From: a virus
Virus record (IMG/VR): IMGVR_UViG_3300017735_000033
Span: 1 to 37,693 of that record
DNA: 37,693 nt
Direction: 5' to 3' (one strand)
This document shows, piece after piece, positions 902 to 13,893 of the stretch (the stretch's first letter is position 1; each line of letters starts with the position of its first letter). The notes below the pieces were generated by a model. That model worked only from the letters and a program-made list of their open reading frames with translations, did not search any database and was not told the DNA's origin. A program made the position numbers and the translations under genes.

Positions 902-2566
902 CTAAATCATCCTCAGGGAGCTTGATTGTTTTACCCCATAGTAGGCTTCAGCGAACTTATCTAGCTCTTGTTTTAAGAGTTGTTCTTTCCTATCGTTGAT
1001 ATTACGGTTAGCATCCTGAGCCATCTGTTCTACCCAATAGTTCACAGCGATACTGAGGGCGTCTAGCCTATCGTCGTGTGTTAGGGCGCCTCTGTTCTTC
1101 GTTATGCGAGACATCTGGTATATCAGTTGATACTTCAGTTGGGACTCTGCGGGGTAACCCTGAGCGCTATCGTAGTCGTTCTTGATGACCTTAGGGCTGA
1201 TAACGAGCCTATGTTGGTTCATAATCGGCTCTAGGGTGTCTATGATGCGCTTCTCTTTTTGAATATTGTGGCGTACCTCTTCGATGGTACACGGGTGAAT
1301 CTTAAATAGAATAGGTTTTAACAACTCTACAAACATACCATCGCCGAAGTTAGACTCGACAACAATCGTATTGACATTGTTTTCCTTGGCTTTGTAGCAG
1401 AGCGCCTTGAGTGTCTCGTCGGAGTATCCGCCTTGAATACCACCTGCGTCAGGGACGAAGAGATTACCATTGAGCATCTTCACTATGGCATATCCTGTTT
1501 CGTCCTTACCGCGCCCTGAGGGGTCGATAGACATCACGGAGCCTGTGTAGGGTATCATATCGCCGATAAGCTGCATCGGGCGGTAGAACCTGTCGCCTGT
1601 CATAGCAACATTAGGAACCGAGGAGTCCCACTCTAGGTGCGGAGATTGCGCCCATACGAGCTTTTCAGGAGCTAACGTAGGGTCTATGTCCATTACTAGG
1701 AGTTCGGACGTTTTAAGGGGGAATCTGTCCATGTCTGACAGCCGCGTGTCGAGCATGAATTGCATAGCGAACCCTGAGCGCCCGTAGGACACCTCTCGTT
1801 CAGCTAAATCAATGTCTGTGAATCTTGTAGGCTCTGTAGAAGTACTCTTCTTCTCAGAATCGACGCAGAATGGGCTTATATTGCCATCGTAGGTCTTTTC
1901 GTTGGTCTTTTGGTCTACGTACTTGCAAGTCCATATGCGCGTCTTGTAGCCCCTCTCAGCGAGCTTACCGTAGATGGTGTCTTCGCATTGAGGTGTACCT
2001 AAGAATAGTATCCTAGATTCATCTTCGGGTTTGATGATGGAGTCGAACTCCTTGACCTGCTCTGAGAGCTTATCGCGCATCCCTTGGGTCTGCGAGTTGT
2101 TCGGGACTTCGACGTCATCAGCAACGATAATATCGGCACGAGAGCCTGTTAGTTGCGATGTGATTCCCAACGACTTAACGGATGGCGCATGGGATGCGGG
2201 GGCAAGTCCGACGTCGAATGAGATTTTAGAGAATCTTTGTTTGTCACTTGGCTTGAGATGAGCGAGGACAGGTAACTCATGGATGAGTCTAAGAGTAAAA
2301 GTAGAGAAATCGTCTGCTCTTGTTTTTGAAGCAGAGACGACAAGTATGTTTTTTCTAGGGTCGAGGAGGAGTTGGTGGACAACGAACGCAGAGCAAATCC
2401 AACTTTTACCGACTCCTCTAAAGCCCTCAATAATAGCTCGTTTATCTCCTCTTTGCATGTATTCAGCGATTTCATATTGAATAGGGGTTGGTTCGGGTAG
2501 ATTTAGTTCGCTCCATACTATATATAGGAAGTTACGAAAGTCCTTTAGTTTGTCGGGGATTTCCAC
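902..2566 (-). CDS. Terminase large subunit (T7 gp19-like, DNA packaging)
   Basis: This is the motor ATPase and nuclease that packages concatemeric DNA into the prohead through the portal. It has 554 residues against 586 in T7 gp19. The Walker A motif GFRGVGKS is at about residues 48-55, and a Walker B-like hydrophobic stretch ending in acids (IIVADDVE) is near 145. The RNase H-like nuclease shows SIDPSGRGKDETGYAIV near 346 and the distal HDDRLDAL acidic motif near the C-terminus. The start is a GTG whose G is shared with the stop TAG of the upstream HNH gene (TAGTG), indicating translational coupling. It lies downstream of the small terminase. Confidence 0.95.
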   Translation of the reverse strand: MEIPDKLKDFRNFLYIVWSELNLPEPTPIQYEIAEYMQRGDKRAIIEGFRGVGKSWICSAFVVHQLLLDPRKNILVVSASKTRADDFSTFTLRLIHELPVLAHLKPSDKQRFSKISFDVGLAPASHAPSVKSLGITSQLTGSRADIIVADDVEVPNNSQTQGMRDKLSEQVKEFDSIIKPEDESRILFLGTPQCEDTIYGKLAERGYKTRIWTCKYVDQKTNEKTYDGNISPFCVDSEKKSTSTEPTRFTDIDLAEREVSYGRSGFAMQFMLDTRLSDMDRFPLKTSELLVMDIDPTLAPEKLVWAQSPHLEWDSSVPNVAMTGDRFYRPMQLIGDMIPYTGSVMSIDPSGRGKDETGYAIVKMLNGNLFVPDAGGIQGGYSDETLKALCYKAKENNVNTIVVESNFGDGMFVELLKPILFKIHPCTIEEVRHNIQKEKRIIDTLEPIMNQHRLVISPKVIKNDYDSAQGYPAESQLKYQLIYQMSRITKNRGALTHDDRLDALSIAVNYWVEQMAQDANRNINDRKEQLLKQELDKFAEAYYGVKQSSSLRMI

Positions 2567-2796
2567 TATTTGTTTCTACCACGGTTCTTTTTCTTAGATT
2601 GTATTCGGAGGTTAGACCTAGAGTTATTCAAGGGGTTTCTGTCCTTGTGGTCAACATCTTTTCCCTTTAAGGCGGCTTTACCGTATCTTTTCACGGCGAG
2701 TTTACGAGCTTTATTACGTCCTGCTCTTCGTTTCTTCTGTGAAGGTTTACCGTGGTAGCGGTTATATTCCGCCTTGTAGTTACGTGGTTTAGCCAT
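2566..2796 (-). CDS. Small basic HNH-type protein in the terminase operon, 76 aa
   Basis: This is a very basic 76-residue protein with a C-terminal HNH-like motif (DVDHKDRNPLNNSRSNLRI at about residues 47-65), matching the VDHxDxNPLNN pattern of phage HNH nucleases. The first His and the central Asn are present. The final catalytic position is Asn (in SNLRI), as in many phage HNH proteins. The N-terminal half is rich in Lys and Arg and may bind DNA. It overlaps the small terminase gene by 8 bases and the large terminase by 1. HNH proteins beside terminases can assist packaging cleavage in other phages; here it could equally be a small homing endonuclease. Confidence 0.75.
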   Translation of the reverse strand: MAKPRNYKAEYNRYHGKPSQKKRRAGRNKARKLAVKRYGKAALKGKDVDHKDRNPLNNSRSNLRIQSKKKNRGRNK

Positions 2797-3013
2797 TGAG
2801 TGCGCGGTCGGTTACATCGTCGAAGGGTAGGTTCTCTATAATCTTCAACATAGGGTTGTCGTTCTTGATTTGAGCGTGGACACCGTTGTCCTTGAGTAGC
2901 TGTCGCGCCGCATTGAGGTCGGAAGGTGTAGCCTCCCCACTCTGTATTCGACGAGTGAACTCATCAATCAAGAGGTCTTGCATAGCGTGTAGCTTGTCTG
3001 TTTTGTCAGCCAT
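2789..3013 (-). CDS. Terminase small subunit (T7 gp18-like)
   Basis: The 74-residue product (T7 gp18 is 89) is called as the DNA-recognition subunit of the packaging enzyme from its position and composition. It is a small, mostly helical protein with the sequence SGEATPSDLNAARQLLKDNG, which resembles small terminases of marine T7-like phages. It lies between the tail and lysis genes and the large terminase. It overlaps the HNH gene by 8 bases. No further motif can be named, so the assignment is partly by synteny. Confidence 0.75.
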   Translation of the reverse strand: MADKTDKLHAMQDLLIDEFTRRIQSGEATPSDLNAARQLLKDNGVHAQIKNDNPMLKIIENLPFDDVTDRALNG

Positions 3014-3016
3014 AGT

Positions 3017-3166
3017 TTATTTCTCGTTTCTTTTATTATGAAAATCAAAAAGTATCTTTACCTTGTCGCTTAGACTTTCGAGGTTGTAGTGCATCCTAGA
3101 TAAGATGATAACAATAGTTATAAAGCCTACACCAACAGACCATAAGGTAGGTATCCATTCACTCAT
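3017..3166 (-). CDS. Single-membrane-span small protein, 49 aa
   Basis: Forty-nine codons start at ATG 3166 and stop with TAA at 3017-3019. The N-terminus is followed by one hydrophobic segment (VGVGFITIVIILS, about residues 11-23), then a charged, probably coiled-coil tail ending HNKRNEK. The start lies inside the end of the upstream holin-like gene (8-base overlap), suggesting coupled translation. The layout of one membrane span with a charged tail resembles small phage membrane proteins next to holins. It could be an accessory lysis factor or a second holin; it lacks the length of a typical i-spanin. Confidence 0.65.
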   Translation of the reverse strand: MSEWIPTLWSVGVGFITIVIILSRMHYNLESLSDKVKILFDFHNKRNEK

Positions 3167-3320
3167 CTTTATCTCTGAGTTCTTTTACGATTTTGATTAG
3201 TAAATACACAAACGACGTCATACCAACTAGGATTGCTACGAGTACGTTTACGTCCGATAGGGTTAACGTCCCAAGGATTCCTAAGAAGCCTACGAGGGAC
3301 GGCATGTGTTCTGATTGCAT
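3159..3320 (-). CDS. Putative holin, two hydrophobic segments, 53 aa
   Basis: Fifty-three codons start at ATG 3320 and stop with TGA at 3159-3161. Two hydrophobic stretches (SLVGFLGILGTLTL and VLVAILVGMTSFVYLLI) are separated by a short acidic turn. They are followed by a charged tail (KELRDKDE). This is the class II holin layout. The gene sits between the tail-fibre genes and the small terminase, where T7 carries its holin gene 17.5. It would form membrane lesions at the end of infection. No endolysin gene is recognised alongside it. Confidence 0.65.
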   Translation of the reverse strand: MQSEHMPSLVGFLGILGTLTLSDVNVLVAILVGMTSFVYLLIKIVKELRDKDE

Positions 3321-3326
3321 GATTTT

Positions 3327-3914
3327 TTAAGCTAGTTTAAATGCGTTAAATGTTGTCACAGGTAAACTTCCTCCTTTTATTGTAGTACTGCTACCAAAGT
3401 CGGTGTACATACGAACCGACACATAGTCTGTATCTGACAGGTAAAATATTCCACTAGTTGAAATGCTTTTAGTTCTGTTAGATGACGAGTTCACGGCTAC
3501 ATCTTCATGTCTTTTGATTTCAGTTGTTGAATTTTTATAAAAAGACAATTCTGTTGTCGCCTGACTGTGTAATCCTTCTATTCTAACAGTAGTACCTAAA
3601 TAATAATAACCCGCAACCGCAGGCGTAAATCTATGAGTAGACGTACTATATTTGCTATCGGGGTCGAACAACTCAGCATCAAACTCTATAAATACAGGAC
3701 TTGTAGAAGGTAGTGTTCCATTAGAACTCGCATAGGCATGAAACATAGGACTGTTAGTCCCGCCTGTAGCTATCGTAGTGCTACCACCTAAGGCGACCGA
3801 ACTACCGTTGATTGTAATAGAGTCATTCGCTAATTTAGTATTAGGAATTTCAGGTACTTGACTAATGGGCAAGTTGCCCTCTAGCATTCGGGTGTTGGCT
3901 TTTGTTAAACTCAT
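3327..3914 (-). CDS. Second tail fibre / tip protein with C1q-like domain
   Basis: This 195-residue protein has a short N-terminal attachment-like segment (MSLTKANTRMLEGNLP) and a small Gly/Thr/Ser linker. A beta-rich C-terminal part from about residue 55 resembles C1q/jelly-roll receptor-binding domains (for example FTPAVAGYYYLGTTVRIEG). This fits a trimeric fibre or tip that contacts the host surface. It is 16 bases downstream of the main tail-fibre gene, which has a similar-looking C-terminal domain. The two may be paralogous receptor-binding modules. It could also be a chaperone or accessory fibre. Confidence 0.7.
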   Translation of the reverse strand: MSLTKANTRMLEGNLPISQVPEIPNTKLANDSITINGSSVALGGSTTIATGGTNSPMFHAYASSNGTLPSTSPVFIEFDAELFDPDSKYSTSTHRFTPAVAGYYYLGTTVRIEGLHSQATTELSFYKNSTTEIKRHEDVAVNSSSNRTKSISTSGIFYLSDTDYVSVRMYTDFGSSTTIKGGSLPVTTFNAFKLA

Positions 3915-3930
3915 ATATCATTTTTTGGGG

Positions 3931-5958
3931 TTAAATTTTCTGTGCTACAAAGGAAACATTTTTTACATACTGGTAATGATTATTGCTGCCTGAATAGTCT
4001 CTAAATTGAAATTTAAAGGTAGCGCCTCCTGTGGGTATGGTTACAAATCTTGCATTCAATGCGTTATATGTTTGGTAAGATGTTGCCGAGGGGTTACCTT
4101 GAAAGTCAGGAGTAGCGGCAGGAAATGTTCCGCTAGTAGTAAGCATTCTATGTTCAAAATAATACGAAGAGGCATATTGACTTTTATAATCAAGAGAATA
4201 CCAGACTAAATACGAACCCTCATTAAGAGTAATTGCATTTGAAGATACCGACATAAAACTAGAGCTTGAAGCCAGAGTAATTGGTATATCGGTATAAGTT
4301 TCCGTCTGGATTCTGTACTCCGCTATTCTAGTAGCTACCGCGGTCGTAGTCGCAGCCGAAGCAACTTGAGCATCAACATACTCTTTAGTTGTTACCTGTC
4401 TGTCGACTGTTATGTCGGATATAGATGCGGAAGGAGTTGTTACCTTCCCATCTGACTGAACAGTAAGTCTGTGAGTAACGGGTTGGTTAGCCCCATCTGC
4501 GTTATTTTGTGCAAGATTTAGATTCTTCCCATTAGCCGAGCGTATAGTCAGTCCATCGTTTGCGAGAATTTCATTAGGGTCAATCGACAGTTTTATGGCG
4601 CTCGCCGAAGTATTACTAGCTAACTGCAATAGCCCACCCGTGTGGTCATTAGGATAAACAGTACTACCTCTTGTTATTTTTACCGCGCCCGAACTTTCAA
4701 TGTTTCCACCTACGATGACGTTTTGTTCGCTATTTAATTGAAGTGCATTACTTGTTGTTCCCGATGAATTAGTAGTTTGAAATATAATGTCCCTACCATT
4801 TGTTTTATTTTCAACGAGAAAAGTACCATCAGTATTGTTGTGTATTCGGGCATCATAATCAGGATTTGTTGCATTCTGACTATGAAAGTCGAGATAAGCA
4901 TATCCGTTACCACCCGTTAGATTTGAATTAATCTCAATTCCCGCAGTTTTATTACCATCACCATTAGTATCTACTCCATCAACTAAAAGGCGACCATTTT
5001 TGAGGTTTACTGTACCATCGAATGTTACATCGTCACCACTAAATGAGGCGGGGAAATTAATTGTGGCGGCGCCTGCGTTGGTAACTACAGATATTACAGC
5101 TCCTGAAGGTGGAGCGGTATCGAATGTAATTTGGTTGAAGGGTGTTAATATAGTGTAACTGTCAGGGCTTTGAGTTAATCCATCAATACTTACATTATAC
5201 GCTTCTTCTTTGCTTGTTTGCGTAGTAAACGTAGTTATAAAAAATGAAGTAGTTGTGCCATCCCCCGTGAAACTTTGGCTTCCGAAGGAAGTTAGATTAG
5301 TGGAAGTTAAGCCAGTCCTAGAGTTAGTATAGGCATTAGCAGAGGCAAGTGTTGAGGTATCCCCTGTGTCAGCATATGTCTGCGCCGAAGATAATGTTGT
5401 AGAATCCCCCGTGTCAGCATATGTCTGCGCTGAAGATAATGTTGTAGAATCTCCTGAGGTTATATTCGCTTGGAGTGTAGCATCTTGTGCATCCACATAT
5501 GTTTTATTAGTTGAGCTTCCGCCTGTAGTGGGGGTAGGTAAGTTTTTAATTTCGCGGCTCTGAGCATCTAGGAAAGTAGAACCACCTGCTGTTACTTCAC
5601 TAATCGCACCGTCAGAAATCTCCGATGCCTCTTCATTGAGGAAACGATTGTGTTGGTAAGCTAAGTCGAGACGAGAGGCTGACAGACGAGAACCATCGGC
5701 GAAGTCTACTAAGTCGGTCGAGGGGTTAGACTGACGTCGAACACGAACAATGTCGCCCGCTGTAGCGCCTGCACCTACTACACCACCGAGTTGGAGAGTA
5801 ACAACGCTTGTTGTCTTGTCTACCGTAAAGTCGGTGTTGTATGTTATTGGTGTGCCGTTAATCTCAACCGCTACGTGCGATTCAAGAAGGACGTTGAAGC
5901 TATAACTGAACGATGTCTCGTTAGAGCCTGCTGTGTAGTCTGTGTATGTATTAGCCAT
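3931..5958 (-). CDS. Tail fibre protein (T7 gp17-like N-terminus)
   Basis: The product has 675 residues, against 553 in T7 gp17. Residues 1-150 match the T7 tail-fibre N-terminal domain that anchors fibres to the tail (YTAGSNETSFSYSF, SRLDLAYQHNRFLNEE). A repetitive Ser/Thr/Asp/Ala region follows (two near-identical 15-residue units, then a diverged third), then a beta-rich shaft. The C-terminal C1q-like domain begins near RIAEYRIQTETYTDIPITLA. It should mediate adsorption. The gene lies between the largest ejection protein and the second fibre gene, as expected. The C-terminal domain resembles the neighbouring 195-residue protein. Confidence 0.92.
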   Translation of the reverse strand: MANTYTDYTAGSNETSFSYSFNVLLESHVAVEINGTPITYNTDFTVDKTTSVVTLQLGGVVGAGATAGDIVRVRRQSNPSTDLVDFADGSRLSASRLDLAYQHNRFLNEEASEISDGAISEVTAGGSTFLDAQSREIKNLPTPTTGGSSTNKTYVDAQDATLQANITSGDSTTLSSAQTYADTGDSTTLSSAQTYADTGDTSTLASANAYTNSRTGLTSTNLTSFGSQSFTGDGTTTSFFITTFTTQTSKEEAYNVSIDGLTQSPDSYTILTPFNQITFDTAPPSGAVISVVTNAGAATINFPASFSGDDVTFDGTVNLKNGRLLVDGVDTNGDGNKTAGIEINSNLTGGNGYAYLDFHSQNATNPDYDARIHNNTDGTFLVENKTNGRDIIFQTTNSSGTTSNALQLNSEQNVIVGGNIESSGAVKITRGSTVYPNDHTGGLLQLASNTSASAIKLSIDPNEILANDGLTIRSANGKNLNLAQNNADGANQPVTHRLTVQSDGKVTTPSASISDITVDRQVTTKEYVDAQVASAATTTAVATRIAEYRIQTETYTDIPITLASSSSFMSVSSNAITLNEGSYLVWYSLDYKSQYASSYYFEHRMLTTSGTFPAATPDFQGNPSATSYQTYNALNARFVTIPTGGATFKFQFRDYSGSNNHYQYVKNVSFVAQKI
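5360..5449. repeat. Two tandem 45-bp repeats inside the tail-fibre gene
   Basis: Bases 5360-5404 and 5405-5449 are near-identical 45-bp units, differing at two bases I can see. They encode two 15-residue copies built on DSTTLSSAQTYADTG, with a more diverged third unit beside them. In-frame tandem units in a fibre shaft allow length change by slippage or recombination. The near-identity suggests recent duplication. Confidence 0.8.
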
Positions 5959-5964
5959 GATAAA

Positions 5965-8900
5965 TTAATTTACTAGATTTTCTTTCTGTTGTTGGGCGTC
6001 ATAATACGCCTGTTGAAGTTGAGGATATTCACGAAGCATTTCTGAGCGCGCTAGGCTTCTGAAGGAACGAAGGTATCGTTGTATTTCTTTAATACGCGGA
6101 CTCTTCTCTCCTACTTTGTCTGCATCTACGGCGCTAGGTAAACTTTGATAATAACTCGTTCCCATCAGTTGCTCTAAGGCTTGACGGAGAGTTCTGTTAT
6201 TAATCTTAACTGTGCCTGCTAGTTCCGCATATCGGTCGTAGGCTGTTTGCCCACCTTCTTCATTACGGAAGTCACGCATGTCGAGGTTCTTATTTCCTCC
6301 TAACAACTCTGTGGGTTTGGAGAAGCCGACGCCCATAGCGCCTATTTCTTGCTCTACGATGCTGTTGGGGATTTCCTTTTGATAAATTGGGTTGAACACG
6401 CCATTCAAGCCATGCGAAGGAACAGTCTCAATTTCACCTAAGAGATTACGACGGGGGCTTAAAGGTTCGATGCCGAGTGCCTTAGAGCCGTCCGCCATCG
6501 GAGTCCTCTTTATCATATAATCCAGTATTCCCCGTGTCTCACGCAGCATACGGTCTTCTGGGTAGTTTTGCGCTTGATTAAAGACATTAGGAACGAAACC
6601 GCCTGCGATATTACCTATGAATCGCTCACCATTCTTAGTTGGGTCACGGAGAACATTAAATAAATTATCCAAACCTTGAACATAAGACTTATTGGTAATG
6701 TTATTCACAATAGTCGAGGCGATGTTAGAGAATACCAAAGATACCGCATCGTCGGTTCCTGACTCGTCATATTTACGATACTCAGCGAGGTCAGCCATGA
6801 TACCAAGTATGGTAGCCATAGGGTCTAGGCGTTGATAACTCACATGTTTATCTGTGTCGTTAGGATTTAAGACGGGTGTGTTTGCAGGTATCCGAATAGA
6901 ATACTCTTGGAAACCGCCTAGTCTCTCAGCATCTCTTTGCTCACGCTTCTTAGAGCCGTAGCCTGTAATGAAGTCTTGGTTAGTAGATACATACCACATC
7001 AATGCTGAGGTTGTAGCGGTAGCCGTCGCTAGGCGTCCAACCATTTCAGATTTCTCTCTTGCGGTTGTTTGGCTAGACATCATCTTTTCACGATAAGACT
7101 TCTTCCACATTGTAGATGCCTCTAGGGTATCCTTGTTGAGGAAGCCTAAGAATGTTCGGGATACACCGAAGGTAAGAATATTAGTTGGAGTTCTTACGAA
7201 CGGAACAACGAATGACATCCAAGGGTTATCTGCGATAAGCTTAGAAATAGTTCGTAGGGAAGCTATGTCAGAGTCTTGTGTATGAGAATTAATCTTAGCA
7301 TACTGCGCTCCGCGTTCTCCTAGAGCTAACTTCTGTTCTCCGTCTCCGAAGTCTGCCATGTTGATGGCTCTTCCTTCGCTGTCGATACGAATAGATTCAT
7401 CTTTTACATAGTGTTTCTCCATGTAATCATTAACGAATGTTTCTCGTTCTTCAAATTGTAGTCCCTTCTCTTCGGCAAGTTTGTTAGCATCTCTCAAGAT
7501 ATTTTCTTCAGAGAATGCTCTTCCGCCGTCAGTAAGGTTTTTCTCTAAACCTAGTTCAACAAACTTAGCTAACTCTTTCGGGTCTTTAATACCCTGTCGT
7601 AGCCCTTGAGTAGATAACTCGGTACGAATGTATTGTCTGTAACTTAGTGCCTTGAAAAATTCGTCACCACCTAAGAGGAAACGAGAAGGCATACGCGATG
7701 CTGTTCCCATCCAATTAAAGGCGGTTTCAGTTAGTCCACCATCTTTAAGGTTTCCGCCAAACATCATGTTAGCGTTCTTACCGTTGATGGCGCCTAGTTC
7801 AAAACTTGTGTCATCGAAGGCGCGGTGATTGGCAATCGTAATCGCCTCATCTTCTCGCACCGCTTTCCACATCAGTCTCCAAGCTTCTGCAACGCTTTCC
7901 ATGTGAAAGGCTAAGTTAAGCTGTGACCTTAATAGTGGTGTGTTTCCTGTTAAAGCAGCGCCCACCGCCGTCTCGGCGCTTCTCATCGCGTACGTAATAG
8001 CATTACCCATGATATTAACAATCTGAGTGGAGGGGGCGGAAAGTAGTGAATTAATCCAATATTCACGGGTCATGTCAAAGAACAATCGACCGCGTGCGCC
8101 TTTACTAATTTTATTTAAGGCTAAAAGACTTTTGTCTATATCGTTAGAGTCCGAAGCGTCCATGAGAAGTTTAATCATTTTCTTCTCACTCATACTGCCG
8201 CGAGCTTGGTTACGATAAGCTTGGTCAGCGGCGGCATTCTTACTTGCCTTGGCGTTGTAGCCAAACTTACGCTTGTAGTGACCCTTCTTGTACATGAACT
8301 TTCTCTGTAATAATCCTAGAGATAAGTTACGTCCGTATAGACCCCACACTCGTTGAACTTCGGTAAATTGGTCTAACAATGAAATTAAATCAGTTCGTAA
8401 TGAATCTACATTACCAACATTCTTCTCCATCGCGTCATTCGTTGCTTTAGCTACTCGTTGAACTTCTGCGCCTATAACTTCTTGGAGTTTGCGGATGGCT
8501 CTTTGTTCTTCTAAAACTTTGTCTAGGTCGCCACCTTCTTTTGCTAACTTAGATATACGAGCAGCCCAACCATTGACGTCGCCGCCCATAATCTCTGCTG
8601 CATCTTTGCTTTCTTTGGTTAGCTCTTTTGCTGTAGTTCTTGGAATAGACTTATCAGCGCGCATTTCTTTAATCTTGAGAAGAGACATAGCTCTTATAAG
8701 CTTTGCTGTCTCAGCAGAATTACGCACAGAACGCGCGGCGGATAGAATAGCTTGTTCTCCGCCTTCTTGTAATTTCTTAAATATACTAACAGTCGGTTGA
8801 CTTAGGTCGGGAGCGCCGTCGTCAGCATCGGGCTTAGGTGGAGGAGTACCTTCAGGTGGCTTACCACCCGAACCTTCGTCAGCCGCTGATTTAATCTTCT

Positions 8901-10446
8901 TAACTTGAACAGCAGAGCCATTCATAGTTTTAGCAGGAACAACAGTAACTTCATATCCATCACCTAGTGTTTGCTGAATATATTCCTGTAGTTCTTTTTT
9001 AGTAAATCCTTTTTGATATGTGCCTTTACTAGTAATTAAAGCTCCTGCCTCTTTAGCAGAGCTATTACCTTTACCAACATCAGAGGCGCTTCGTGTTTGG
9101 ATAATGGCTGTTCCGCCTTCCTTTAATACACGACCAATATCTTTTACAATACCGACACGAACATCGGGCGGCACAACATTTAGAGTATTAAGACTTACAA
9201 CATTTTCATAGCTGTCCGATGGGATGTCTGATGCCTTGTTGTAGTTAGGGTCAAAACCTTCTCTTGGGAATGGCTCATAGCTGTCAGCTTTTAATATGTC
9301 GGAGCCTAAACCTCTACCCGCACCAAAGTCGAGAGTTTTACCTTCCCCCAACAACGGAACTACTTTTTCATAAGTTTTTGTTGTACTTGTGATTTGAGTT
9401 TTCTGAGCATCAGCAGGGTTATAATCAGGTTCGTCTTCTGACTTAAATTGAGTTTCTTCTATTGTATTTCTGCCGCCGCCTGTCTCATTTAGACGAGCAA
9501 GAATTTCTTCTTTAGTTCCCTTGGTGTCTAGACCTCGTTGACGGGCTTCATACCTAAGCTCTTTAATAGTTAGGTCATTTAAATTTTCTTCGGGAACGAA
9601 GTCGTCTCCTGTGTCATCAGCATCGGCATTATCTCTGTCGTGCTTGTTGTCCGCTTCGTCGCGGGAACCGTTGATTTCATCTTCTGTAAGGTCTGACTTG
9701 TCGATAGCATCTTCTGTTGCTTCTTCTTTTGTCTTACCTTCTTGCAAGCCTTTGTTACGATTCTTAATCATCTTAACAGCCTTGAAGAATCCTACAGCAC
9801 CACTTATACCTGCTTCTAAGAAAAAGCCTTCGATAACATTTTTGAATCGACCTTCTATCTCTCCTTCGTCTTCACCTTTCGACGCCAAGTACTCCGTAAC
9901 AGGATTCCTGAGAGATTCATTCATATTAATTAAATTAGAAAGTCTCTCTTCCTGCGCATCGAACACTAAGAAATCTGCGGCAGCACCTGCGGCTACGTTT
10001 GTAGCTATTTTCTCTTTCTTAGATTTACCTAATCTTTTAACAGCCTTTAACTTACGAATTTCTGCGGGAGATAAATCCTTCGACTTTCTAGCAATCTTGA
10101 GTGCAGTCTTGCTACCAACTTTACCTGAGAGTTTTGCGAAAGTTCCTACACGTCCTAGTTGTCCTGCTACAGGAACGAAGCCTGTCATGAACTGTGCGAC
10201 ACCTTCAACTAAACCACCTGCGATTGTGTTAGAGCGTCCTAAGAATCGTTTGTTGTAATCAGGGAGAAGTTCATCTCCTGTAACCCAATCGGCTAGGTTG
10301 TAAATACCTTGTACTGCGCCTTCGACGCCTCTGAAGGGAGCCGCCAACACATCCGTGACGACGTTCTTATCTTCTTGTTGTCCTTGGAGAGGTTGGGTAC
10401 TGCGCGAGGTTGCGGTCGCGCCTTTTACGATTTCGTCAATAGCCAT
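5965..10446 (-). CDS. Internal virion / DNA ejection protein D (gp16-like) with SAP and methyltransferase-like domains
   Basis: This 1,493-residue protein occupies the T7 gene 16 position between gp15-like and tail-fibre genes. It is expected to be ejected into the host and to help build the DNA channel across the envelope. T7 gp16 (1,318 aa) begins with a lytic transglycosylase domain; I see none here. Instead there is a Lys/Glu-rich linker, a SAP-like DNA-binding helix pair (about residues 288-322, LTIKELRYEARQRGL) and a class I SAM-methyltransferase-like domain (about 355-518). The latter has motif I LDFGAGRGLGSDIL and a later strand GGTAIIQTRS. A Pro-rich linker follows, then the long helical ejection part. 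It could modify or protect incoming DNA; that is inference. Confidence 0.85.
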   Translation of the reverse strand: MAIDEIVKGATATSRSTQPLQGQQEDKNVVTDVLAAPFRGVEGAVQGIYNLADWVTGDELLPDYNKRFLGRSNTIAGGLVEGVAQFMTGFVPVAGQLGRVGTFAKLSGKVGSKTALKIARKSKDLSPAEIRKLKAVKRLGKSKKEKIATNVAAGAAADFLVFDAQEERLSNLINMNESLRNPVTEYLASKGEDEGEIEGRFKNVIEGFFLEAGISGAVGFFKAVKMIKNRNKGLQEGKTKEEATEDAIDKSDLTEDEINGSRDEADNKHDRDNADADDTGDDFVPEENLNDLTIKELRYEARQRGLDTKGTKEEILARLNETGGGRNTIEETQFKSEDEPDYNPADAQKTQITSTTKTYEKVVPLLGEGKTLDFGAGRGLGSDILKADSYEPFPREGFDPNYNKASDIPSDSYENVVSLNTLNVVPPDVRVGIVKDIGRVLKEGGTAIIQTRSASDVGKGNSSAKEAGALITSKGTYQKGFTKKELQEYIQQTLGDGYEVTVVPAKTMNGSAVQVKKIKSAADEGSGGKPPEGTPPPKPDADDGAPDLSQPTVSIFKKLQEGGEQAILSAARSVRNSAETAKLIRAMSLLKIKEMRADKSIPRTTAKELTKESKDAAEIMGGDVNGWAARISKLAKEGGDLDKVLEEQRAIRKLQEVIGAEVQRVAKATNDAMEKNVGNVDSLRTDLISLLDQFTEVQRVWGLYGRNLSLGLLQRKFMYKKGHYKRKFGYNAKASKNAAADQAYRNQARGSMSEKKMIKLLMDASDSNDIDKSLLALNKISKGARGRLFFDMTREYWINSLLSAPSTQIVNIMGNAITYAMRSAETAVGAALTGNTPLLRSQLNLAFHMESVAEAWRLMWKAVREDEAITIANHRAFDDTSFELGAINGKNANMMFGGNLKDGGLTETAFNWMGTASRMPSRFLLGGDEFFKALSYRQYIRTELSTQGLRQGIKDPKELAKFVELGLEKNLTDGGRAFSEENILRDANKLAEEKGLQFEERETFVNDYMEKHYVKDESIRIDSEGRAINMADFGDGEQKLALGERGAQYAKINSHTQDSDIASLRTISKLIADNPWMSFVVPFVRTPTNILTFGVSRTFLGFLNKDTLEASTMWKKSYREKMMSSQTTAREKSEMVGRLATATATTSALMWYVSTNQDFITGYGSKKREQRDAERLGGFQEYSIRIPANTPVLNPNDTDKHVSYQRLDPMATILGIMADLAEYRKYDESGTDDAVSLVFSNIASTIVNNITNKSYVQGLDNLFNVLRDPTKNGERFIGNIAGGFVPNVFNQAQNYPEDRMLRETRGILDYMIKRTPMADGSKALGIEPLSPRRNLLGEIETVPSHGLNGVFNPIYQKEIPNSIVEQEIGAMGVGFSKPTELLGGNKNLDMRDFRNEEGGQTAYDRYAELAGTVKINNRTLRQALEQLMGTSYYQSLPSAVDADKVGEKSPRIKEIQRYLRSFRSLARSEMLREYPQLQQAYYDAQQQKENLVN

Positions 10447-12839: not shown

Positions 12840-13415
12840 TTATCCGAGTGCCTCCGCTTTTTTCTCAGCATATAAGTTTTGTTTGCCTTGTCCGTATATA
12901 GTCATTGTTGACCCTGCAAGGTTAACCATAGAGCCTAAGTAATTAGGCTGTTGAATTGGTTTGTTAATTTTAATTAAATTATTTGAATTACGGAATCCTG
13001 CCTCAGTAAGCTGTAGTTGGTTATTAATACCTGTAAGACGACTCTGCTCGGCTACGGAGAAACGGTAGTCCGCTTCCTGCCTTGTGTAGTCATCCATAAG
13101 CGCATCTACGCTTAGTCCTGAGACTCCTGACTCACCTGCGGAAACCATTGCGGTCGAACGCGCGGCGGTAGCCTTCTTCTGCGACTCCTGTATATCCCTC
13201 GTCATCACTAAATCCTCCTGCGCTTCCTTCAGGCGCATCGCTGAGGCTTCACGCAGGTAGCGCTCATTCTCGCGCTTGGCGGCGGCTTTTTGTGCATCAG
13301 CTTGATTCCTAGCAGCTTGTTGCTGCGCCATCATCGACATAGCTGTAGAAGCTACTGTCGTCGCTAGACTGATTTTCATCATTGTAGCGGCTGTTATTGA
13401 GGTTGGTTCACACAT
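12840..13415 (-). CDS. Internal virion protein B (gp14-like)
   Basis: This is a 191-residue protein, close to the 196 of T7 gp14. A hydrophobic/Ala-rich N-terminus (MMKISLATTVASTAMSMMA) is followed by a Gln/Ala/Glu helical region (QQQAARNQADAQKAAAKREN). That is typical of gp14, which forms the outer-membrane pore during DNA ejection. I chose ATG at 13415 because it overlaps the end of the gp13-like gene by 8 bases and gives the family length. A longer frame to 13460 would add 15 residues that overlap that gene further. It is followed directly by the gp15-like gene. Confidence 0.83.
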   Translation of the reverse strand: MCEPTSITAATMMKISLATTVASTAMSMMAQQQAARNQADAQKAAAKRENERYLREASAMRLKEAQEDLVMTRDIQESQKKATAARSTAMVSAGESGVSGLSVDALMDDYTRQEADYRFSVAEQSRLTGINNQLQLTEAGFRNSNNLIKINKPIQQPNYLGSMVNLAGSTMTIYGQGKQNLYAEKKAEALG

Positions 13416-13893
13416 AATTATTATAGATTGTAAATTTATAGAAAGTCGCCCCGTTAACATCTACGGGGTGAACTAGGGTAGCACCGCACCACATTAACCA
13501 TCGTAGGGAAAAGTGGTTTTCGCTGTGTACCATGTTGGAGTATTTAGGGTATTTGGTTGTAATTTTCTTAATCCAAGGACGAGAAAATCTTATGAAGTCT
13601 GATTTGTAATCGTATATTTCATCAGTCCCTAGCATCCATATATATCCCTCATCTTTGTCTAGGGCGCCGACACCAAACATTGCACACGGTGTTTTGTCTT
13701 TAGTCAAGACGGTGTACGACTCATCATCGTATGATAGTCCCCGCGTCATTCCTTGGTCGGACTTACTACCTAAAAACTCAATTTCAGTCCTATCGGCACT
13801 TCGTAAATTGGTTGCAATGTGTCCCACATGTTCTTTAGAAGCGGGAACAACACTCACACCTGTTTGGTATTCTTTATTTAATAAATCAACCAT
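13408..13893 (-). CDS. Internal virion protein A (gp13-like, GNAT-like fold)
   Basis: This product of about 161 residues resembles T7 gp13, a GNAT-like small protein needed for virion core assembly. Visible parts include VVPASKEHVGHIATNLRSAD, CAMFGVGALDKDEGYIWMLGT and HSLRW-like NHFSLRWLMWCGATLV, which match the usual acyltransferase-like layout. An active acetyltransferase role is not established for the family. The start at 13893 overlaps tail tube B by 8 bases; an upstream ATG at 13926 would overlap it by 41. It overlaps the gp14-like gene by 8 bases at its end. Confidence 0.8.
   Translation of the reverse strand: MVDLLNKEYQTGVSVVPASKEHVGHIATNLRSADRTEIEFLGSKSDQGMTRGLSYDDESYTVLTKDKTPCAMFGVGALDKDEGYIWMLGTDEIYDYKSDFIRFSRPWIKKITTKYPKYSNMVHSENHFSLRWLMWCGATLVHPVDVNGATFYKFTIYNNYV

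Follow-up and report, generated by a model that had tools for sequence, protein, structure and literature searches.

A putative methyltransferase payload in a variable slot of a T7 gp16-type ejection protein

Our results show that a single open reading frame (ORF) of a marine T7-like phage combines the conserved parts of a gp16-type ejection protein with a SAP domain and a class I S-adenosylmethionine (SAM) methyltransferase domain. The ORF encodes 1493 amino acids and lies in a stretch of 37,693 nucleotides (IMG/VR virus record IMGVR_UViG_3300017735_000033, positions 1 to 37,693), here called the window. The two domains are encoded at 8893-9585 on the minus strand, corresponding to residues 288-518. 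We consider it reasonably likely that the gp16-type protein serves as a delivery chassis, and that its lineage-specific payload, the SAP module and an active methyltransferase, enters the host and methylates a target early in infection, most likely to weaken host defence or some other obstacle to takeover.

The SAP and methyltransferase domains

The original prediction, made from the sequence alone, had proposed a SAP-like helix pair at residues ~288-322 and a methyltransferase-like domain with motif I DFGAGRGLG, and both were recovered. The SAP match reached 31.2 bits against a Pfam cut-off of 23.9 (Table 1). For the methyltransferase, the Pfam match alone is only suggestive: Methyltransf_23 aligns at residues 368-462 with an E-value of 2.9e-4, under the family cut-off, and a PDB sequence search with the SAP-methyltransferase region gave weak generic hits only. 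An AlphaFold model, built on a 50-member alignment from viral contigs, has a mean predicted local distance difference test (pLDDT) of 91 and a predicted template modelling score (pTM) of 0.89. Each of the top PDB matches to this model is a class I SAM methyltransferase (Z ~14-16, ~150-178 residues). The 50 relatives share 45-68% identity with the domain, and D373, G377, G379, E391, N423, R430, R452, Q478, K479, G480 and F481 are invariant in all of them. These residues include the motif I glycines and the acidic residue after strand 2 (E391) expected of a class I SAM methyltransferase. Both the comparison with class I structures and the survey of the motif I glycines, which had been suggested as checks, thus agree with the predicted enzyme.

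The domain is under purifying selection. Its ratio of nonsynonymous to synonymous substitution rates (dN/dS) against two close relatives is 0.18-0.21, a rough ratio with synonymous sites near saturation. Because of the conservation, the dN/dS and the structure model, we reject the explanation that the domain is a chance match or artefact; as modelled, the methyltransferase is apparently intact.

The SAP domain is also matched in L009 (E 4.3e-8), a locus whose gp16 is 58% identical to that of the window. Tandem SAP units were found, two in L008 and L009 versus one in the window protein, so that SAP copy number differs between close relatives.

Identity as a gp16-type protein

Gene position and homology support the 1493-residue protein as an ejection-type protein, in line with the gp16 position originally assigned to it. 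The window matches the T7 order: terminase large subunit (TerL), tail fibre, gp16-type ORF, gp15-position ORF, gp14-like ORF, tail tubes and capsid. On the same strand, the gp16-type ORF is flanked upstream by the gp14-like gene and the gene of the 795-residue gp15-position protein, and downstream by the terminase gene and that of a T7-type tail fibre. By tblastn, both ends of the gp16-type protein align with proteins annotated as 'internal virion protein D' in pelagiphages and roseophages. The terminase is 72% identical to that of the uncultured Ayaqvirus S45C18 and ~60% identical to those of roseophages. By analogy, the protein would be present in the virion and ejected.

Like T7 gp16 and the PhiM1 TEP, the window protein is encoded between gp14 and gp15 on one side and the tail fibre on the other, has a long helical C-terminal part and carries its enzymatic domain in the N-terminal third. 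However, the enzymatic domains of T7 gp16 and the PhiM1 TEP act on peptidoglycan (PMC8954989, PMC11440229), whereas the window protein has a methyltransferase and a SAP domain and no transglycosylase match. No transglycosylase domain had been seen in the original prediction either; no such family appears in Pfam at E ≤1, which is a missing hit and not proof of absence.

A variable slot between conserved parts

A search with the C-terminal hub collected 158 gp16-like ORFs. The methyltransferase is present in only two of them (L112 and L114, on the contigs of L009 and L008), both of the window's own lineage. It is missing from the other 156, and therefore gp16 function does not require the domain. 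Judged from the sequences, METHYLTRANSFERASE is a payload and no core part of gp16, and among gp16-type relatives only the window's lineage has this methyltransferase in the slot. For instance, Gjalp gp35 and CRP-403 gp34 align at the conserved parts, without the SAP-methyltransferase block. A domain that gp16 can do without might be a degenerate or purely structural insert lacking catalysis. Yet this is very improbable, since motif I and the other pocket residues are invariant and dN/dS is ~0.2.

The stretch between the N-terminal segment and the hub ranges from 167 to 1086 residues among the 115 ORFs in which both parts were recognised. Zincin-like HExxH motifs, called by sequence pattern and not by family score, lie in the slots of L139, L135, L128, L136, L180 and L167. 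The slot of L167 also holds a second methyltransferase, of another subfamily (Pfam E 9.5e-7), and that of L131, and probably of L137, has SAP but no methyltransferase. ART-PolyVal occurs in 2 of 30 scanned gp16-like members, which the local search did not identify individually. The gp16 equivalent of PhiM1 has an endolysin/exotransglycosidase-like, peptidoglycan-acting domain at residues 268-528 (PMC11440229), a comparison made by residue numbers and not by alignment. Because length and content differ so between the conserved N- and C-terminal parts, we interpret the stretch as a slot whose payload can be exchanged.

The HExxH motifs occupy the slot where the window has SAP and methyltransferase, which suggests self-processing or effector peptidases in ejection proteins. 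In L167, the methyltransferase (VNVDIGGG...FNVLNVIKEP) spans residues 767-857 of ORF 1987-8040 and is followed by the zincin-like motif. With regard to a possible shared acquisition, the tree groups the methyltransferases of the window lineage and the other gp16-position ones (L013, L016) together with L010, L020 and LS06, but the clade has weak support and long rows disturb the tree.

Distribution of the methyltransferase family

Its sequence distribution indicates that the methyltransferase family is phage-specific and nearly confined to phages. The domain was found at 243 confirmed viral loci, versus 3 loci in 84,980 cellular genomes (one genome per species). Judged by their protein, two of these 3 resemble phage DNA; the remaining one is archaeal and only distantly homologous. 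Carriers are mostly long proteins, usually of the head module. At 39 of the 80 fetched loci, the carrier lies in the TerL-portal-X-coat cluster of CRP-3-type phages, with terminase, portal, gp35 or coat as neighbours. In another T7-like group (L011, L012, L013, L016) it is a very long ORF, with ~2400 amino acids in complete copies, that follows gp14, precedes TerL or does both. The domain lies beside the portal gene in L049 and L067, in the latter also near the major head gene, and Myrna gp97, CRP-3 gp36 and CRP-738 gp40 are in head modules as well. Co-occurring domains in carriers are ART-PolyVal (4 of 38), LPD23, the DUF6782 metallopeptidase, Hydrolase_2 (a cell-wall hydrolase) and lysozyme, a set characteristic of injected polyvalent proteins (PMC5512222). 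As multidomain proteins carried in virions are the typical setting of this domain family, we think delivery into the host the most fitting interpretation.

An alternative explanation might be that the enzyme works at the assembly stage: within the producing cell it would modify a virion component or the DNA that is yet to be packaged, and thereafter be a mere passenger. This would suit gp16 as a late structural protein, and standalone versions of the domain exist. Nevertheless, it is improbable, because an assembly-stage enzyme needs no repeated fusion to injected-effector domains and ejection proteins.

In the cultured roseophages, CRP-3 gp36 (L002 4627-8505) and CRP-738 gp40 (L003 5491-7998) lie between portal and coat and contain the same methyltransferase, joined in one polypeptide to Hydrolase_2 or DUF7178; both are annotated as hypothetical. 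Rhodobacteraceae phage LS06-2018-MD07 (L006) encodes a protein of >3000 amino acids, ~9 kb of its 42.7-kb genome, with the methyltransferase and a zincin-like HEFTH motif.

Polyvalent proteins have been described as injected with DNA (Iyer et al. 2017, PMC5512222). Found in phages and conjugative elements, they are large, associated with virions or with transfer, and join unrelated enzymatic and DNA-binding domains. Similarly, the window protein unites SAP, methyltransferase and gp16 parts in one polypeptide that would be delivered. Rare SAP/Rho-N HeH domains are named among polyvalent-protein domains (PMC5512222), and the window protein has a SAP domain. Many other carriers have ART-PolyVal, LPD23 or a peptidase, whereas no match to ART, zincin or LPD domains was obtained for the window protein. 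By analogy, it belongs in character with the polyvalent proteins. The main text of that paper presents a DNA adenine methylase-helicase dyad, and the terms SAM-dependent, AdoMet, T7-like and gp16 did not turn up there (PMC5512222). The N4-type virion RNA polymerase is an ejection protein bringing an enzyme into the host (PMC12633501), as the window protein would be, although the enzyme and phage group of the window protein are unrelated to it.

Possible targets of the methyltransferase

The original prediction went further and proposed an injected, DNA-bound methyltransferase that protects the incoming genome, in analogy to phage P1 DarB. In such a scheme, SAP would anchor the enzyme to the entering DNA, and base methylation would block restriction. 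Consistent with this, SAP adjoins the methyltransferase, the protein has a presumably head-borne position, and the nearest named family is associated with DNA modification, one cellular member lying beside dndA, dndB, dndC and dndD. The ejection-type protein, the SAP domain and the methyltransferase of this proposal stand; DNA as its substrate is not supported, and the domain is not of the EcoKI/TaqI-like adenine methyltransferase type. Neither [DNS]PP[FYW] nor PC[QAE], the motifs expected of DNA base methyltransferases, occurs anywhere in the 1493 residues, motif IV being N-x-L-N-V-V-P, and the window protein has no target-recognition domain and no helicase. Moreover, nearly all other carriers of the methyltransferase are without SAP, while SAP occurs without the methyltransferase in the gp16-like L131 and probably in L137. 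We consider base protection of the entering genome possible but rather unlikely.

The comparison with DarB holds for a possibly similar working, not for homology. DarB combines LPD36 and a SWI2/SNF2 helicase with an adenine methylase of the EcoKI/TaqI-like kind that bears NPP(Y/F) (PMC5512222). Like DarB, which is thought to act on entering DNA, the window protein would be head-borne and has a methyltransferase region. Unlike DarB, it lacks the NPP(Y/F) motif and any match to LPD36 or a SWI2/SNF2 helicase: NPPY and PC motifs and a Walker A are missing, and no helicase or LPD36 match was found in Pfam up to E 1, where the presence of an LPD36 model in Pfam was not separately confirmed. The missing catalytic motif and helicase rule out DarB membership.

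The nearest NCBIfam family is TIGR04096 (dnd_rel_methyl, DNA-phosphorothioation-associated putative methyltransferase), which 46 of the 50 members match (best E 7.4e-8), against 11 of 50 for the next family. The window domain itself scores 23.7 bits (E 1.8e-5) against a cut-off of 150, far under the membership score, and therefore we speak of kinship and not of membership. Profile comparison (hhalign) with two cellular TIGR04096 members gave 96% probability (E 2.7e-9). The phage domains share with the family a methyltransferase core with distinctive LNV and T[FY]QK.F motifs, the latter appearing as TFQK or TYQK. In contrast, only about positions 29-151 of 478 are common, and TIGR04096 is a cellular gene and not a virion protein. 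One of the two cellular members adjoins dndA, dndB, dndC and dndD, whereas the other has no homologues of these within the 19.5 kb covered. In the cellular genome L111 (8661-17859), the TIGR04096 protein lies near dndA, dndB, dndC, dndD and a dndE-sized ORF. In the literature searched, no function or substrate for TIGR04096 was found.

The tie of TIGR04096 to a DNA-modification operon leaves a DNA-related role of the domain open. DNA as target is suggested by SAP and by TIGR04096; yet the link between SAP and methyltransferase is rare elsewhere, and a DNA-base motif is missing. A quite speculative extension, to which we give little credence, is that gp16 is a general payload carrier and that the virion-delivered methyltransferase of this lineage counters defence by phosphorothioate (Dnd) or related backbone modification, its target being sulfur-modified DNA or Dnd-linked chemistry and not bases.

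Alternatively, the injected enzyme might methylate a host protein, RNA or small-molecule signal, disarming a defence or redirecting the host. Among the fold neighbours in the PDB, which methylate small molecules, proteins and tRNA, are METTL6 and a heterocyclic toxin methyltransferase, and in other carriers the accompanying domains have proteins or the cell wall as targets. However, a fold likeness at 12-20% identity says little about substrate, and SAP suggests nucleic acid. We regard such a target as a real possibility, though at somewhat less than an even chance.

Proposed mechanism

We infer the packaging, cytoplasmic delivery, activity, target and purpose of the payload as follows. The gp16-type protein with its payload would be packaged in the head and, on infection, leave it as a threaded chain together with gp14 and gp15, either before the genome or along with it. 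The payload would refold in or near the host, where host SAM would permit methylation of the target in the first minutes. The SAP module may hold the methyltransferase on the incoming DNA, and methylation would most likely blunt a host defence or another takeover barrier.

Several points weigh against this scheme. The substrate is not readable from the fold, and presence in the virion is argued by analogy. The AlphaFold model of the hub has no significant Foldseek match in the PDB, T7 gp16 included (best VIA Z 4.1). Foldseek and VIA returned chance helical matches only, which speak neither for nor against a T7 gp16 fold of the hub; a PDB sequence search with the hub profile also gave chance hits only. 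A short, standalone form of the domain occurs at ~12 of the 80 loci, and therefore members of the family need not be fused to a delivered protein. The scheme is weakest in its topology. The N-terminal 228 residues of T7 gp16 are periplasmic, and models place the part from residue 411 onward in the cytoplasm (PMC8954989). The payload lies between these parts, and the domain at residues 268-528 of the PhiM1 equivalent acts on peptidoglycan (PMC11440229), so that the slot could face the periplasm. A periplasmic payload would be without SAM, which is not expected there.

Genome context

The features of the window are listed in Table 1. The gp15-position protein had no PHROG match and no convincing Pfam match. 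It is ~40% identical to relatives whose terminase is 91% identical, which points to fast evolution.

Table 1. Coordinates of the gp16-type gene, its predicted domains and its neighbours in the window.
Feature	Position	Strand	Evidence
gp16-type ejection (internal virion) protein, 1493 aa, proposed payload carrier	5965..10446	-	PHROG 6651 'internal virion protein' E 1.6e-37
SAP domain, residues 289-321, HeH-type nucleic-acid-binding module	9484..9582	-	Pfam PF02037 E 1.6e-7
Class I SAM-methyltransferase domain, residues 345-520	8887..9414	-	AlphaFold, PDB matches, TIGR04096 E 1.8e-5, 50-row alignment
Motif I DFGAGRGLG, residues 373-381, predicted SAM-binding loop	9304..9330	-	D373, G377, G379 in 50/50 relatives
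N-terminal segment conserved in gp16 group, ~residues 30-258	9673..10359	-	blastp and profile matches to gp16-like ORFs without methyltransferase
C-terminal part conserved in gp16 group, ~residues 755-1475, mostly helical hub	6022..8184	-	matches 158 gp16-like ORFs; AlphaFold pLDDT 83
gp15-position protein, 795 aa	10449..12836	-	position and size between gp14-like and gp16-like ORFs
gp14-like internal virion protein	12840..13460	-	PHROG 805 E 1e-20
Tail fibre, gp17-like N-terminus	3931..5958	-	Pfam Phage_T7_tail E 9e-15
Terminase large subunit (TerL)	902..2566	-	PHROG 38 E 2e-117

Implications

As far as the literature searched shows, three points appear to be new: that virion proteins contain this methyltransferase family, that the family is akin to the Dnd-associated one, and that gp16-type proteins have a payload slot. 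The search found no description of this domain in ejection proteins, most subscription papers being outside its reach. Our results suggest that short-tailed phages use their ejection machine to deliver effectors from an exchangeable slot, a suggestion that is directly testable. They also connect a phage methyltransferase family that is widespread but has no name with a cellular family associated with Dnd, which provides a first hypothesis for both. Relatives of these T7-like phages infect abundant marine bacteria, whose defences are poorly known.

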